Shown here piece after piece: positions 39,112 through 45,812 of a DNA stretch of 64,000 nt (position 1 is its first letter; the number at the start of each line of letters is the position of its first letter). The stretch spans positions 124,001-188,000 of the forward strand of contig JAPNUX010000008.1 in NCBI GenBank assembly GCA_026626905.1. The letters are read 5' to 3'. A program made the translations under genes and the position numbers. The stretch comes from Desulfurococcus sp. (lineage in GTDB: Archaea; Thermoproteota; Thermoprotei_A; Sulfolobales; Desulfurococcaceae). Under the pieces are notes generated by a model. That model did no database searches. It had not been told where the DNA came from and saw only the letters and a list, made by a program, of their open reading frames with translations.

Positions 39112-40155
39112 CTAGGGGAGACTACGGGGGTTAGCAAAGAACCAGGAGAGGTCTGCAGGCCTCTTCCTCTTAACGCCGCCTTCAACGAGCCCGTGGGCTA
39201 TAATGGGTAGAGCTATAGTTGCATCAACGTGAACCTGCTTCTTTCTAGCTCTAGGTGAAACCTTCCCCCAGCTGACAGCCTCTTCTAGTGTTGCACCACT
39301 AAGCCCTCCCCACTGAGGTAAATCTGTTGTAAACTGTACAACGTACTCTAGGCTCTTATAGTAGTCGTGAACACTCTCCTCGTACTCCTTTATGAGTGTC
39401 TGTGCTACTGCTACAAGGTTCACGTAGTCTTTTGGTACTCCACCTCCAATGTATATTGCGGAAAGCTTCCTCGCTCTCCTCCCGATCTCGATGAGCTGGT
39501 GGAAGTCTCTAACCATGTCGAGGATTACTTTATGTCCCTTCCTGTATGCTAGTACAGCGGCAATACCGTACCCGCTGTCAACTAGTGCAGGCGAGAATAC
39601 TGGTACTCCAGCCCTGTACGCTGCTGCTACAATACTGTCTACCCCTTTCTCGTTAAGGAACCTGCCAAACTCGTGTAGGAACTCGGCTGTACTGTAGACG
39701 CTGCCCTCGGGGAGGACCTCTATGAACTCCTCTATAAGCTTCTCCATCCTCCTGTAGTCTTCCTCGCTTGCAAGTGTATCGTAGAATCTATCATACTTTA
39801 ACTTGAGTAGCTCTTCATCGCTAACGCATGGATGAGTCTTATAGTACTTGAAGCCCATGGCCTCATATATATCCTCGCTTATAATAGCTCCTGTTGAAAC
39901 CACAACGTCTACATACCTCTCCTCGATAAGCCACTTTATAATCCTCCACATGCCAGCTGTACTCATGGATCCAGCGAGCCCTAGGAATATAGTATTATCC
40001 TCATCGCTGAACATATCAATGAGGATCCTGTAGGCTTCACCTAGACTCCTCCCCTGGAATGCTGTATCCCCCATCTCTAGTAGAAGCTCGTGGATGCCTC
40101 TACGCTTAACATCAAGAGCCTTAACATACCCCATTAGAAAGCCGGGCTCACCCAT
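39112..40155 (-). CDS. dys: Deoxyhypusine synthase
   Basis: Makes deoxyhypusine on archaeal IF5A from spermidine and Lys. 340s aa. Motifs: LAGSMSTAGMWRII, GAIISEDIYEAMG, FSPALVDSGYGIAA, and the active Lys region EEAVSWGKVSPRARKK where Lys forms the enzyme intermediate. Start at ATG 40155 (MGEPGFLMGYVKALD) is chosen; ATG 40134 is also possible. Converges with the NuoH-like gene after 6 bp. Confidence 0.93.
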   Translation of the reverse strand: MGEPGFLMGYVKALDVKRRGIHELLLEMGDTAFQGRSLGEAYRILIDMFSDEDNTIFLGLAGSMSTAGMWRIIKWLIEERYVDVVVSTGAIISEDIYEAMGFKYYKTHPCVSDEELLKLKYDRFYDTLASEEDYRRMEKLIEEFIEVLPEGSVYSTAEFLHEFGRFLNEKGVDSIVAAAYRAGVPVFSPALVDSGYGIAAVLAYRKGHKVILDMVRDFHQLIEIGRRARKLSAIYIGGGVPKDYVNLVAVAQTLIKEYEESVHDYYKSLEYVVQFTTDLPQWGGLSGATLEEAVSWGKVSPRARKKQVHVDATIALPIIAHGLVEGGVKRKRPADLSWFFANPRSLP

Positions 40156-40239
40156 AGAGCACACCAATCTATAGAACACACTGGAGAATTAAAACTCTGA
40201 AACCACTAGGTAACCGGGAAACAAACCTGAGCAGTAGAA

Positions 40240-40348
40240 TGCCGCCGCCGGGATTCGAACCCGGGACAACCGGATATCCCCTGAGGTGACCTCGGTCACT
40301 AATACCCCGTATGAGTCCGGCGCTCTGACCGGTCTGAGCTACGGCGGC
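40240..40348 (-). tRNA. tRNA-Met (CAT, elongator type) with intron
   Basis: Acceptor GCCGCCG/CGGCGGC, discriminator A. Anticodon arm CCGGA CTCATAA TCCGG once a 34-base intron at 40276-40309 is removed, giving CAT. D arm and T arm (CCGGG TTCGAAT CCCGG) are normal. The CCGGA/TCCGG stem is typical of elongator Met, not of the Ile(CAU) species. A TATA-like element (GCTTAAAACC on the minus strand) is at 40371-40380. Confidence 0.9.
40276..40309 (-). other. tRNA-Met intron
   Basis: 34-base insertion after position 37, at the canonical 37/38 site. It contains self-complementary GTGACC/GGTCAC (TTAGTGACCGAGGTCACC), so it folds into a hairpin beside the anticodon as expected for the bulge-helix-bulge substrate of the splicing endonuclease. 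Exact borders may shift by a base. Confidence 0.75.
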
Positions 40349-40433
40349 ATAGCACACTATGGTTTCTCGGGGTTTTAAGCTTGAATAACCTGAAAAACAC
40401 TTATAATCCTCAAGTAAGCTGGAGGTAGGTTGA

Positions 40434-40508
40434 GGGCCCGTCGCCTAGCCAGGATAGGGCGCCGGCCTCCTAAGCCGGAGGCCCGGGGTTCGAATCCCCG
40501 CGGGCCCG
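40434..40508 (+). tRNA. tRNA-Arg (anticodon CCT)
   Basis: Acceptor GGGCCCG/CGGGCCC, discriminator G 40508. Anticodon arm CCGGC CTCCTAA GCCGG gives CCT. T arm CGGGG TTCGAAT CCCCG. TATA-like ACTTATAATC at 40399-40408. No intron. Confidence 0.92.
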
Positions 40509-40832
40509 CACCTCCACTAAACCATACGGTGTCACTGGAATCCCTTTGTTTACGAGTTTAAGACGGTGGTAGATGAATCTCTTGCGCACCTACGCTAAGC
40601 TAGGTATTACTGCATTCTCTAAGCTGGTCTTCGAATAACCTTAGTGGAGCAGGCTTTAATGTAAGGGATTAAGCTATAATAATGAGGAATACCTCTAGAT
40701 TTAATCCCGTTTATCCTGTCATCCTGTTAAGATTTCCGCGTGGGAAGCTTGCATTGATTTCAAGTCGACTATTATAGCTGCTTCAGCTGGAGTACCAGGA
40801 TACATGATTTAAGGAAGCAGAGAAACTATATT
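40509..40832. other. Gene-free stretch between tRNA-Arg and the decayed gene
   Basis: About 324 bp. On the minus strand a 28-codon open run (starting MYPGTPAEAAIIVDLK, about 40720-40803) could be a further remnant of the decayed gene beside it. Otherwise I see no gene, repeat or RNA. Confidence 0.4.
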
Positions 40833-41297
40833 CTAGTGGAATTCAAAGTATATTCCTGCAGGTACATAATAGTAGCAGTAGGTTCCAGGCTCCCTATACT
40901 TGTAGCGGCTAATCCTAACGTAAACGTACTCAGGGACATTATAGTCTCCAGGGATAGCTGAGTGGTCTCCGTGATTCACCACGATTCACTATATTTCTAA
41001 TTAATGTAGATTGATGGCGATTCATATGATAAGGATAACTGGGATACTGATAGGTAGTTCTGAGCCGCGAAGCACGCTATGAAGCCTATAGGTTCTAAGG
41101 AAGCCGCTAGAATACTGCATATACCTATTGCTGCGTAAGTCCCGAGAGGTATTCCAATCTCATGGTTGCTTCCACTCGTATCGTAACATATTTGCTCTAA
41201 AGCGATGTATTCACCTGGATCTAGTTTACCGTCATATAGATATGTTCCAGGAACACTAGATTGCTTCTACCGGCACTTTAGATTTCATTTCACGCAT
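40833..41297 (-). pseudogene. Decayed minus-strand gene (fragmented reading frames)
   Basis: A possible start ATG at 41297 reads MREMKSKVPVEAI and stops at TAG 41256-41258. A shifted frame is open from 41266 to TAG 40997-40999 with 89 residues (VPGTYLYDGKLDPGEYIALE, HEIGIPLGTYAAIG, LEPIGFIACFAAQNYL). A third frame from about 40985 to TAG 40833-40835 encodes NHGDHSAIPGDYNVPEYVYV and YCYYYVPAGIYFEFH. Their composition is protein-like and joining them needs one frameshift in 41259-41266 and another near 40990. Function unknown; a minus-strand TATA-like element sits near 41340. Confidence 0.5.
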
Positions 41298-41337
41298 GGA
41301 TCCTAGACTCTAGGGAAGCGATAAGAGGAGGCTGGAG

Positions 41338-41350
41338 GATATTTATATTC
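41338..41350 (+). promoter_or_regulatory. TATA box for tldD (also readable on the minus strand)
   Basis: GATATTTATATTC about 34-46 bases before the TTG at 41384. Its reverse complement GAATATAAATATC is equally TATA-like and could serve the decayed minus-strand gene. Confidence 0.5.
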
Positions 41351-41383
41351 TACGGTGCTATTTTACCAATACTGGTGGACTAG

Positions 41384-42820
41384 TTGCTGGATCTAGTTGA
41401 GTACGGGGTTAAATTAGCAGGTGAGCTTGGCGCCTCCTATAGTGAAGCCAGGTATCATGGTATTAGTAGGCTGGGAGTATATACTAGGAATGGTAGTGTT
41501 GTGGGTTCAAGTCTCTCGAATCGGAGTGGTATAGGTATCAGGGTTCTCGTGAACGGTGCTCTAGGCTTTGCTGCTACACCTGATTTAAGCAGGGAGGGTG
41601 TGAGGAGGGCTGTTGAGAAGGCTGTAGGGCTTGCTCGAGCCTCCTCTCGGCTAGTGAAGAATCCCTTGAAGCTGGATGATTCAAGGCTTGGGAGAGCTAG
41701 GTATTCTGCTGTAGCTGTAAAACCCTTTGACTCTCTGTCTCTCGACGAGAAGATAAACTATTTAACCGAGCTGTGGAAGAGTATTCAAGGCTCTACGAGG
41801 GAGGCTAGAATTCCTGTTCTAACTGTAAGCTACGATGAGTGGATTGAAGAGAAAATAATAGTGAACAGCGACGGCGGGTACATTGAATCCAGTATTCCTA
41901 GGATAACAGTATACTATAACATGGTGGTAAGCCATCCAGCTAAAGGTAGCGTGCAGAGATGGGAGCAGCTCGGCGGGAGTGGTGGAGTCGAGCTACTAGA
42001 TAAGTGGAGGCTGCACGAGAAGCTTCCTGAGGAGGCCTCGAAGTATGAGGAGATACTGCTGAAAGCTGTACCACCCCCTTCAGAACCCGTTGATGTAATA
42101 GTTGGAAGCGAGATAGTGGGATTAATAGTTCACGAGTCCTCAGGGCATCCAAGTGAAGCAGATAGAATCATGGGGCGTGAAGCAGCTCAAGCTGGTAAAA
42201 GCTTCATTAAACCAGGCATGCTTGGAGCCAAGATTGGAAACGAGTATGCAACTGTTATAGATGACCCTACAATCCCTGGGAGCTACGGCTTCTACCTCTA
42301 CGATGATGAAGCGGTACCTGCGAGAGCCCGATACCTATACAAGGAGGGAGTAGTATACGAGCACCTCCACAACAGGTTTACAGCAACAGTATACGGTGTT
42401 AGAAGCAATGGAGCAGCTAGAGCCATGGACTACGCTAGCGAGCCTATAATCAGAATGGGCAACACCTACTTCAAGCCGGGGGACATGAGCTTCGAGGAGC
42501 TCCTGGAGACTGTGAGAAAAGGCGTCTACATTAAATCCTACATGGAGTGGAATATAGATGATGAACGCTGGAGTCAAAGGTACGTCGGGCTTGAAGCATA
42601 CCTCATCGAGAACGGCGAGCTAAAGGAGTACGTGAGGAACCCAGTGTTAGAGGTAACTACGAAGTCATTCTACAGTAGCATAGACGGCGTTGACAGAAAC
42701 CTTGAATTCTATGCTGGCACCTGCGGTAAAGGAGAGCCGTCTCAAGGCGTCCCAGTATGGTTCGGGGGACCCAACGTGAAGCTGAAGAATATTAGGCTTA
42801 GAAGCACGCGGGGTGGGTGA
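41384..42820 (+). CDS. tldD: TldD-type metalloprotease subunit
   Basis: TldD of the TldD/TldE complex, a predicted metalloprotease that trims peptides and matures certain natural products. The zinc motif HESSGH (in LIVHESSGHPSEADRI) is near residue 250. 478 aa. TTG start at 41384, nine bases from the predicted transcript start. Overlaps tldE by 8 bp. Confidence 0.93.
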   Translation: MLDLVEYGVKLAGELGASYSEARYHGISRLGVYTRNGSVVGSSLSNRSGIGIRVLVNGALGFAATPDLSREGVRRAVEKAVGLARASSRLVKNPLKLDDSRLGRARYSAVAVKPFDSLSLDEKINYLTELWKSIQGSTREARIPVLTVSYDEWIEEKIIVNSDGGYIESSIPRITVYYNMVVSHPAKGSVQRWEQLGGSGGVELLDKWRLHEKLPEEASKYEEILLKAVPPPSEPVDVIVGSEIVGLIVHESSGHPSEADRIMGREAAQAGKSFIKPGMLGAKIGNEYATVIDDPTIPGSYGFYLYDDEAVPARARYLYKEGVVYEHLHNRFTATVYGVRSNGAARAMDYASEPIIRMGNTYFKPGDMSFEELLETVRKGVYIKSYMEWNIDDERWSQRYVGLEAYLIENGELKEYVRNPVLEVTTKSFYSSIDGVDRNLEFYAGTCGKGEPSQGVPVWFGGPNVKLKNIRLRSTRGG

Positions 42821-44147
42821 AATGGAGCTCCATAGAAAGATACTTGAAGAAGCCCTCGGCAAGGGGTTCCAGGAAGCAGCTGTCAGGCTGGTTGAAACCG
42901 AGAGGACTATGAGTAAGATAGCTAACAGCGAGTTAAGCGTGGTACAATACTGGAGGCTCGTCAATGTAGAACTCTACTTAGTGAAGGATAAGAGGGTAAT
43001 AATAGCTGAGGTAGTAGGATTAGACCCCAGCAGGGTTTCTCTTACCCTAGAGCAACTAGTATCTATGGCGGGTAGAGTGAGAGAGTCGGAGATCTACGCC
43101 CCCCTCCCAGAGCCCGGTAAGCCTGCTGAAGTACCAGGTATGGTTGACGAGAAGATCATAGAGCACTTGTATGATCCCTCGAGTCTAGTCGAGGAGATAG
43201 TAGGCGTAGCCCATGAGGAGAAGATAGACTATGTTGCTGGAATGCTTAACCTCGAGCACGTCAAGGAGTACCTTGCGACATCTAAAGGCTTCGATGGCAC
43301 CCATGAGTACACGTCAATGGAATCCTATATTAGAGCTTTCGCTGGTGAAGAAGGGAGCGGACAGTGGAGCACCTGTTCAACAAAGCTTAGAAGAGACAAG
43401 CTTTCAACAATGGCTAGGATAGCAGCTAGGTATGCTGTAGAATCGAAGAGCAGGCTTGATGTTGAGCCAGGTGTCTACGACCTAGTTCTCTCTCCAATGG
43501 TATTCGGGAACCTGCTAGAGTACCTCTCCTATATGGCTACAGGCTTCGCTATAATGACAGGTTTATCAATATTCATGAAGAACCAGCCGGGAGATAAAGT
43601 AGCGTCAAGCCAGCTCACAGTGATCGATGATCCCCATGAAGCCGAGCTACCAGGCAGTAGAGGCTTCGATTTAGAAGGCGTTCCTACGAGGAGAAAGCCG
43701 ATAATAAAGACAGGTGTGTTAGCGACAATACTGCATAACTCTAAAACAGCATCAAAATTCAATACTGAGACCACGGGTAACGCGGGATGGCTTTCCCCAG
43801 AGCCATGGAACCTAATAGTAGAGCCCGGCGACTATACTGTTGAAGAATTAATCAGCGAGGTGAGGAAAGGGTTACTCATAAATAACAACTGGTATACGAG
43901 GTTCCAGAACTACGTTGAAGGAGAATTCTCAACTATAACAAGAGATGCACTATTCTACATTGAAAACGGCGAGATCAAGGGGGCGGCGAGAAAGATTAGA
44001 ATAGCTGATAAACTCTCAAGCATACTCGCAAACATAGAGGGGTTGACAAGAGATAGATACGATGTAAAGTGGTGGGAGGTTAGATATCCTACCAGGGCTC
44101 CATTCATACTAGTGAGAAACGTGAATACTTCAAAGCACGTAATGTAG
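42813..44147 (+). CDS. tldE: TldE/PmbA-type partner subunit
   Basis: TldE (PmbA), the non-zinc partner of TldD. Same fold, no HExxxH; SSQLTVIDDPHEAELPGSRGFDLEGVPTRRKPIIKTGVLATILHNSKTASKF and TTGNAGW are the family core. 444 aa. Overlaps tldD by 8 bp, so the heterodimer is co-translated. Confidence 0.92.
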   Translation: MGEMELHRKILEEALGKGFQEAAVRLVETERTMSKIANSELSVVQYWRLVNVELYLVKDKRVIIAEVVGLDPSRVSLTLEQLVSMAGRVRESEIYAPLPEPGKPAEVPGMVDEKIIEHLYDPSSLVEEIVGVAHEEKIDYVAGMLNLEHVKEYLATSKGFDGTHEYTSMESYIRAFAGEEGSGQWSTCSTKLRRDKLSTMARIAARYAVESKSRLDVEPGVYDLVLSPMVFGNLLEYLSYMATGFAIMTGLSIFMKNQPGDKVASSQLTVIDDPHEAELPGSRGFDLEGVPTRRKPIIKTGVLATILHNSKTASKFNTETTGNAGWLSPEPWNLIVEPGDYTVEELISEVRKGLLINNNWYTRFQNYVEGEFSTITRDALFYIENGEIKGAARKIRIADKLSSILANIEGLTRDRYDVKWWEVRYPTRAPFILVRNVNTSKHVM

Positions 44148-44174
44148 ATGAGAAGAAAAAGTTGTTTTTCCTAA

Positions 44175-44393
44175 CTAGCTTCCTGCAGCCTTTGCAATCC
44201 TACTCTTTATTAACTCATCGATTAGCATGAGGATCCCGCTGATTATAAGGTATAATGCTACAACTAACGCTAGTAAGTCCGGCTCAACTAGTATTAGAAT
44301 ACCGAATATCAGCATTAATATACCTATTACTAGCCTCGGCGCGCTAATACCGAGATACTTCCTCAGTAATTCCTGGATCTTCTCCTCAGACAT
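44175..44393 (-). CDS. DUF3096-like small membrane protein
   Basis: 72 aa: a short polar N terminus, then two hydrophobic helices (LVIGILMLIFGILILVEPDLLALVVALYLIISGILML) with the GIL-hydrophobic pattern of DUF3096 membrane proteins. Function unknown. Encoded convergently to tldE, 27 bp away. Confidence 0.7.
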   Translation of the reverse strand: MSEEKIQELLRKYLGISAPRLVIGILMLIFGILILVEPDLLALVVALYLIISGILMLIDELIKSRIAKAAGS

Positions 44394-44552
44394 CTACTCC
44401 ACCCAACACACTATCATGTAGTAGTATCAGCTAAAATAGCTTTCAGTAGAGCCTCCAAGATACTCAAGTATTCTATGGGTGAAAATAGTACTTAGTGAAT
44501 AAGTGAATACAGGTAAAACACTTAAGGATTAGTCTCCTTTCGTGAAGGTTTG

Positions 44553-44636
44553 GTGGTGAAGAGAGACCGCCTTGGAAACCTATTGCTGCTTGAACTCCTC
44601 GCTAGGTTCAAGCTATACTATAGGATTGAAGAATGA
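44553..44636 (+). other. Possible short ORF upstream of a GC-rich hairpin
   Basis: GTG 44553 or 44556 opens a 26-27 residue frame (reads KRDRLGNLLLLELLARFKLYYRI then EE and TGA 44634-44636) with composition like a helical peptide. It is followed directly by the strong hairpin at 44645-44709. It could be a small protein, a leader peptide or the remnant of a larger gene; evidence is thin. Confidence 0.3.
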
Positions 44637-44644
44637 GGCCGGGA

Positions 44645-44709
44645 GTGACCCGCCCCATGCTCATCCCGTGCCCCGGTACACGGGGGTGTTGCATGGGCAC
44701 CGGGGTCAC
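44645..44709 (+). ncRNA. GC-rich stem-loop, possible H/ACA-type guide RNA or structured element
   Basis: Three nested helices: GTGACCC (44645-44651)/GGGTCAC (44703-44709), CCCATGC/GCATGGG, and CCCGTG/CACGGG around an 8-base loop. ACA stands at 44708-44710, close to where an H/ACA box would be. The internal loops (2 against 5 bases) are small for a pseudouridylation pocket, so a guide RNA role is only one reading; a riboswitch-like or terminator hairpin is also possible. Confidence 0.4.
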
Positions 44710-44771
44710 ACGTCAATTCTTTAAAAAGATGTCTCTGGGTTTAAAACTATGCTTCTACACTTTAGACAAAG

Positions 44772-45812
44772 CTACTTGATCTCTATTGAAGAATTCTTAG
44801 CGATCTTAATGTTCAATACAGCTTCTGCTATACCGTTCGAGTACCTCACGATTCTCCTTATGCTATCGCATATCTGCGCTAGACCCGCCTTCTCTTTATC
44901 TGTGAGGCTTGGTGAGTTTATTATCTCATCGCGTAGAACCCTCTCTATCTCATCTATAAGGATTTTCGATGTCTTTATTACTTCCTCTGCATCCTTCCTG
45001 CTAAGGTTGTAAAGGGTTCCCATGGATTTATTGAAGAGCTCTGACGCTTTAACTAGCAGGTCGTAGACTGCCTGTGAACCCTTGAATCCTTCACCCATGC
45101 CTAGTATTCTCTTAGCTATGTTAACTGCGTGGTCAGCTATTCTCTCCAGGTTCCTCGCTATAATCCGATAGTTAAGGGTTTCAACTATGTTAGTTATCCC
45201 TAGCTCGTGCTGCACTCTTATGTCTAGAAGCGACATGCTGAGCTCTCTAAATATCATGTGGTGGAATCTATCGGCTTCATCATCTCTCTGTATTATAGCT
45301 TGAGCTAGATTTACATCAAAGTTTCTCAGCAGGTTTTTAGTATCCTCGAGCATGTTGCTTACTATCAAGTGAAGTCTTCTCAAAGCGCTAATCAAGGGTA
45401 GCTCTCTAATATTAAGGAGGATCTTAAAGGTAATACTGTTAAATTGTTCTTCTATAACTTCTATACCAGCCAGCTTTATTCTAGCGAGATTCTTAACCTC
45501 GCTGACATAGCTTGCTAAATTAGGTATCCCGGGATCAAATGTAACTGTTATAGAATTATACCCTGAGAGGTATGCTGCAACAATCATCCGGAAAACCTGG
45601 TCTACTGGGATTGCCCCACCTACTTTAATTGATGCTTTAGCTACTGCAGCCTCAATTGCAGGCGGGATTATTACTAGCTTATCCCCGTACCTCTCAACTG
45701 TCACGTAGTCTCCACTCTTTAACCCGACAAGGTCAACCCATTCTCTAGGTAGTGTTATAATGAAGGATGACGAACCAGTTTTTTGAACTTTTCTTCTCTA
45801 GGTACTCATCAT
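44772..45812 (-). CDS. AbrB-like plus PhoU-like regulator; start region holds an in-frame TAG
   Basis: An N-terminal SpoVT/AbrB-type DNA-binding segment (SSFIITLPREWVDLVGLKSGDYVTVERYGDKLVIIPP) is followed by a PhoU-like four-helix repeat pair (ISALRRLHLIVSNMLEDTKNLL, RNLERIADHAVNIAKRIL), as in archaeal phosphate regulators. The ribosome binding site GGTGGAGGGG (minus strand, 45818-45827) precedes ATGATG at 45812-45807, but two codons on is TAG at 45798-45800. No ATG, GTG or TTG then occurs before GTG 45704, which lies inside the AbrB domain. A frameshift or nonsense error in the first codons, or a non-canonical start, is needed for an intact protein. Confidence 0.75.

Follow-up and report, generated by a model that had tools for sequence, protein, structure and literature searches.

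The gap between a tRNA-Arg (CCT) gene (40434–40509, plus strand) and a tldD-type metallopeptidase gene (41384–42820, plus strand; Pfam PmbA_TldD domains) raises the question of whether it hides a protein-coding gene and, if so, what has become of that gene. Both neighbors lie outside the feature studied here, and all coordinates refer to the window, namely the whole stretch of 64,000 nucleotides analyzed, which comes from a 1.27-Mb archaeal draft genome in 8 contigs. As described in the original prediction, the open stretches on the minus strand of the gap do not share one frame and contain the residues given there; we see them in two adjoining frames. No RNA gene was found between 40500 and 41400, where Rfam gave no match up to an E of 1. 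Beyond the tRNA-Arg gene, Rfam identified a tRNA on the minus strand (40240–40348; 60.3 bits) that was missed by ARAGORN; by eye, its anticodon is CAT (Met) and is followed by an intron.

The length of the open frames was rejected as evidence for coding, since, of 500 dinucleotide shuffles of the gap sequence, 62 contained a stop-free stretch of at least 89 codons, a result that suits frames open by chance and not coding. The evidence for a gene remnant is homology instead. A purpose-written, frameshift-aware alignment joined the window pieces to one protein, as had been predicted. The best-scoring relative was the G023 homologue, including its C-terminal end VPAGIYFEF; the alignment to the C-terminal part of this homologue scored 329, whereas 60 dinucleotide shuffles reached at most 39. 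The same type of alignment placed the pieces on residues 423–563 of an intact paralogue, and the two segments of the remnant individually matched the C-terminal part of the profile of an unnamed family of membrane-anchored proteins in Desulfurococcales. Thus, the coding-like signal anticipated earlier exceeds shuffled sequences in alignment score and not in frame length, and against this score and the two profile matches the probability of chance frames is negligible.

The remnant (40833–41257, minus strand) corresponds to the C-terminal ~140 residues of a family of ~560-residue proteins. Segment A (41003–41257, minus strand), based on the frameshift-aware alignment, in-frame reading and a family HMM match (E = 5.3e-21), comprises 85 codons (SVPGTYLYDGKLDPGEY...SIYI) homologous to residues 423–504 of the paralogue. 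It is followed on the same strand by a +1 insertion, placed approximately at 41002 by the alignment to the intact paralogue, by the short in-frame sequence IRNI, which separates the lesions (40990–41001; alignment and in-frame reading), and by a 10-bp tandem duplication (40970–40989; sequence and paralogue alignment), which makes the second +1 shift and whose two units are alike at 8 of 10 bases. Segment B (40833–40979, minus strand; frameshift-aware alignment, in-frame reading and family HMM, E = 2.8e-15) reads VNHGDHSAIPGDYNVPEYVYVRISRYKYREPGTYCYYYVPAGIYFEFH and ends in the natural stop at 40833–40835. The frameshift expected at about 40980–41000 was therefore correct in location but not in number, as two +1 lesions (near 40980–41002) were found instead of one.

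The start and the first 422 of the ~563 codons are missing from the remnant. The edge of homology is at 41257, or at 41254 or 41266 with other homologues in the frameshift-aware alignment, and the adjoining stretch with the truncation edge and the tldD upstream region (41258–41383, no strand assigned) showed no family homology in the part tested (41267–41383). On the minus strand, this part scored 28 against the family, a score that 6 of 30 shuffles reached. As it scores no better than shuffles, the position ~41257–41266 is a truncation edge, not the frameshift proposed at 41259–41266. The stretch tested (41267–41383) includes most of MREMKSKVPVEA, which had been taken for the first piece of the gene and turned out to show no homology. 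The N-terminal part of the gene was found neither by the family HMM in the same genome nor by alignment of 41267–41383. Because the gene's own 5' end is gone, there is nothing left to promote, and the suggested promoter shared with tldD is not supported. The remnant also lacks the PPWWCFWC insert of the intact paralogue, an absence that is not ascribed to decay because the insert is likewise missing from intact copies, those of G050 and G099b.

A DNA search of the genome with 40520–41384 gave two further matches, with 81% and 86% identity, at the start of the same contig. Both fall inside a single frame (G000:C8:3-1691, minus strand) of 563 codons, open to the contig end, which we regard as the intact paralogue; protein and profile searches of this genome detected only the paralogue and the window pieces as family members. 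The paralogue possesses an N-terminal hydrophobic helix and the PPWWCFWC insert, and had no sequence match in PDB. It resembles the remnant in its homologous C-terminal third, with near-identical silent sites in two patches, and differs in that the remnant is without the start and the insert. The contig end cuts the last few residues of the paralogue (L004:1-1691), implying that the assembly broke inside this gene, and the comparison with the remnant stops at the contig edge, before the paralogue 3' flank.

Homologues in related genomes had been expected, and the family was indeed present in 23 of 118 relatives and, by profile search across the order, in 37 of 214 genomes, the genome under study being counted in both. 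Neither the search of relatives nor the order-wide profile search found it in the two genus-mates. The members begin with a hydrophobic helix at the N terminus and continue with beta-rich domains, as seen in the alignment (10 sequences) and a predicted model, in agreement with the earlier view of a decayed secreted or membrane protein gene on the strand opposite to tldD; we infer that the family is a surface-exposed, membrane-anchored protein. As the helix and the full length are missing, the feature in the window is a remnant rather than a functional member of this family. Three family members queried gave no match above the cut-off in Pfam and NCBIfam and only weak matches (E of 0.019 or worse) in PHROGs and PADLOC. 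A viral origin was rejected, as no relative was present among 87 pattern matches in viral_contigs. No conserved gene partner was found across the neighborhoods of 29 loci (several being one gene fetched twice under different names); some of them share common genes, such as ABC-transporter-like ones. The G023 homologue differs from the remnant in being intact and in an unrelated neighborhood. Among the publications that literature searches listed, none dealt with the remnant locus or the family.

Broken-looking copies with frameshifts or stops appeared among the order-wide profile matches in G019, G163, G164, G171, and G085, and frameshift-aware alignment likewise gave a broken appearance to the G019 copy and to that of L080 (7700–9700). 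Recurrent pseudogenization in the family is a lead only, because drafts may contain errors and each case may be decay or draft error.

Two predicted models of one relative (pLDDT of 84.4 and 82.1) were compared with known structures. At E ≤ 0.001, Foldseek returned a single PDB match when queried with the whole model (3kog, 3.6e-4, TM 0.11–0.18), none for residues 204–537, and two viral matches with TM of at most 0.20. For residues 37–195 of the modelled relative, VIA-align gave a best Z of 4.3, suggesting a modest immunoglobulin/transthyretin-like sandwich arrangement. An aerolysin-like pore-forming fold, considered for the intact family, appeared in several weak Foldseek matches with TM of at most 0.30, and parasporin-2 gave a Z of 3.4. 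For these predicted models, Foldseek provides no convincing fold, and neither Foldseek nor VIA-align names a function.

The similarity between the remnant and the paralogue is a mosaic. In the flanks (residues 423–445 and 500–537), 161 of 183 nucleotides are identical and 44 of 46 shared residues use the same codon, whereas in the middle (residues 446–499) the figures are 77 of 156 and 8 of 19, the boundaries for these counts having been set after viewing the alignment and the middle being gappy, so that part of its divergence could be decay. In a two-breakpoint scan with free boundaries, a fair test in that it chooses its own boundaries albeit one that assumes exchangeable codons, none of 1000 codon permutations reached the observed contrast. 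Nine control pairs of the paralogue and other intact homologues showed far smaller contrasts, and in three of them at most 4 of 200 permutations reached their own, smaller maximum. The best 30-codon window of the remnant had the same codon at 22 of 22 same-residue positions; the best fraction among the 45 pairs of 10 intact sequences, in which the near-identical pair L018/L019 was left out, was 0.82 (11 same-residue codons). The middle of the remnant (residues 444–491) shares 13 of 46 residues with the paralogue of the same genome and is closer to G023, G050, and G007, with 22–23 of 48. The flanks contain 15 nonsynonymous and 2 synonymous codon differences, a small sample in which either copy may have changed; this ratio would fit drift rather than purifying selection. 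Regarding the idea of recent decay, only the two paralogue-like patches are in line with it; the middle represents an old divergence. From these codon patterns, gene conversion between the two copies of one genome, followed by drift, is the simplest account of the mosaic and a probable one. The two intact copies of G099 have no such patch between them, and conversion is thus not shown as a habit of the family.

In both genus-mates, what comes after the genes for deoxyhypusine synthase and tRNA-Arg (CCT) is not the remnant but other genes, namely a sodium:sulfate-symporter-type gene in G002 and, in G001, one gene whose product looks secreted and one for a ParB-like protein. Further on, both genomes contain the three-gene block seen in the genome under study, but with pmbA and tldD pointing the other way. 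The window at 39112–45704 compared with the genus-mate loci L088 and L089 shows the tldD-pmbA block and the third gene inverted, and each of the three species has its own genes next to tRNA-Arg (CCT), making this a variable spot. The secreted-looking protein beside tRNA-Arg in G001 (L089:11911-13494, minus strand) has 527 residues, with a Thr-rich stalk, a C-terminal hydrophobic stretch and no Pfam match at E ≤ 0.001. When the regions upstream of tldD were surveyed in 23 further genomes of the taxonomic family (1500 bp sought per genome; one genome gave only 27 bp), no match comparable to that in the genome under study (E = 1.4e-30) was found, the next best having an E of 0.006. Thus, the upstream survey and the comparison with the genus-mates place the remnant at a rearranged spot.

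On these sequence comparisons, we consider it very probable that the locus is a 5'-truncated, frameshifted, non-functional pseudogene of a gene for a membrane-anchored extracellular protein, of which the paralogue survives intact. A rearrangement that brought the copy to its place between tRNA-Arg and tldD would have cost it its 5' part; either earlier or later than this truncation, two short stretches would have been homogenized with the intact gene by gene conversion, and the copy may now drift without selection on the protein. The original prediction had also allowed for a wrongly sequenced gene. A functional gene disrupted by an error of sequencing or assembly would suit a draft in 8 contigs, as well as small lesions flanked by otherwise open segments, but it leaves unexplained that the start and ~420 of ~563 codons are missing and that the 117 bp tested beyond the truncation edge have no homology to the family. 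Furthermore, the units of the duplication differ at 2 of 10 bases, so that it is not a fresh artefact, and we find such an error scarcely credible; for the gene as a whole, the truncation refutes it.

The absence of any trace of upstream codons also agrees with a duplicate of the 3' end that arose in truncated form, through ectopic recombination from the paralogue, and was never a complete gene, and so do the patches nearly identical to the paralogue at silent sites. A simple recent copy would be uniform, however, and the middle resembles the paralogue no more closely than it does G023, G050, and G007; this origin is accordingly rated as unlikely. The mosaic arrangement, with shared flanks of ~70–110 bases around a divergent, stop-free middle in a surface-exposed type of protein, recalls a silent donor cassette, that is, a 5'-truncated store of variant sequence for an expressed surface-protein gene with exchange via the two flanks. 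Several donors would then be expected, but in this genome the intact gene is accompanied by one fragment alone, the two frameshifts are located within or next to the shared flank on the 3' side, and the two intact G099 copies lack such patches. Given the single fragment and the position of the frameshifts, we therefore hold it very improbable that the remnant is or recently was a cassette of that kind in a hyperthermophilic archaeon, comparable to the msp2 and pilS stores of bacteria.

The remnant points to an uncharacterized, patchily distributed family of membrane-anchored extracellular proteins in Desulfurococcales, with broken-looking copies in several genomes, and to gene conversion that has probably left its trace between a living and a dead copy. 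Should this trace reflect exchange that is still going on, it would be a case in which surface-protein variation in archaea can be tested. As a pseudogene, the remnant is ordinary. In the msp2 system of Anaplasma, many donors feed one expression site. Genome papers report 26 pseudogenes for D. mucosus and 40 for S. marinus (PMC3035234). The msp2 functional pseudogenes (PMC2789410) resemble the remnant in being truncated copies with a divergent middle between shared ends; the remnant differs in that it is one fragment with frameshifts.
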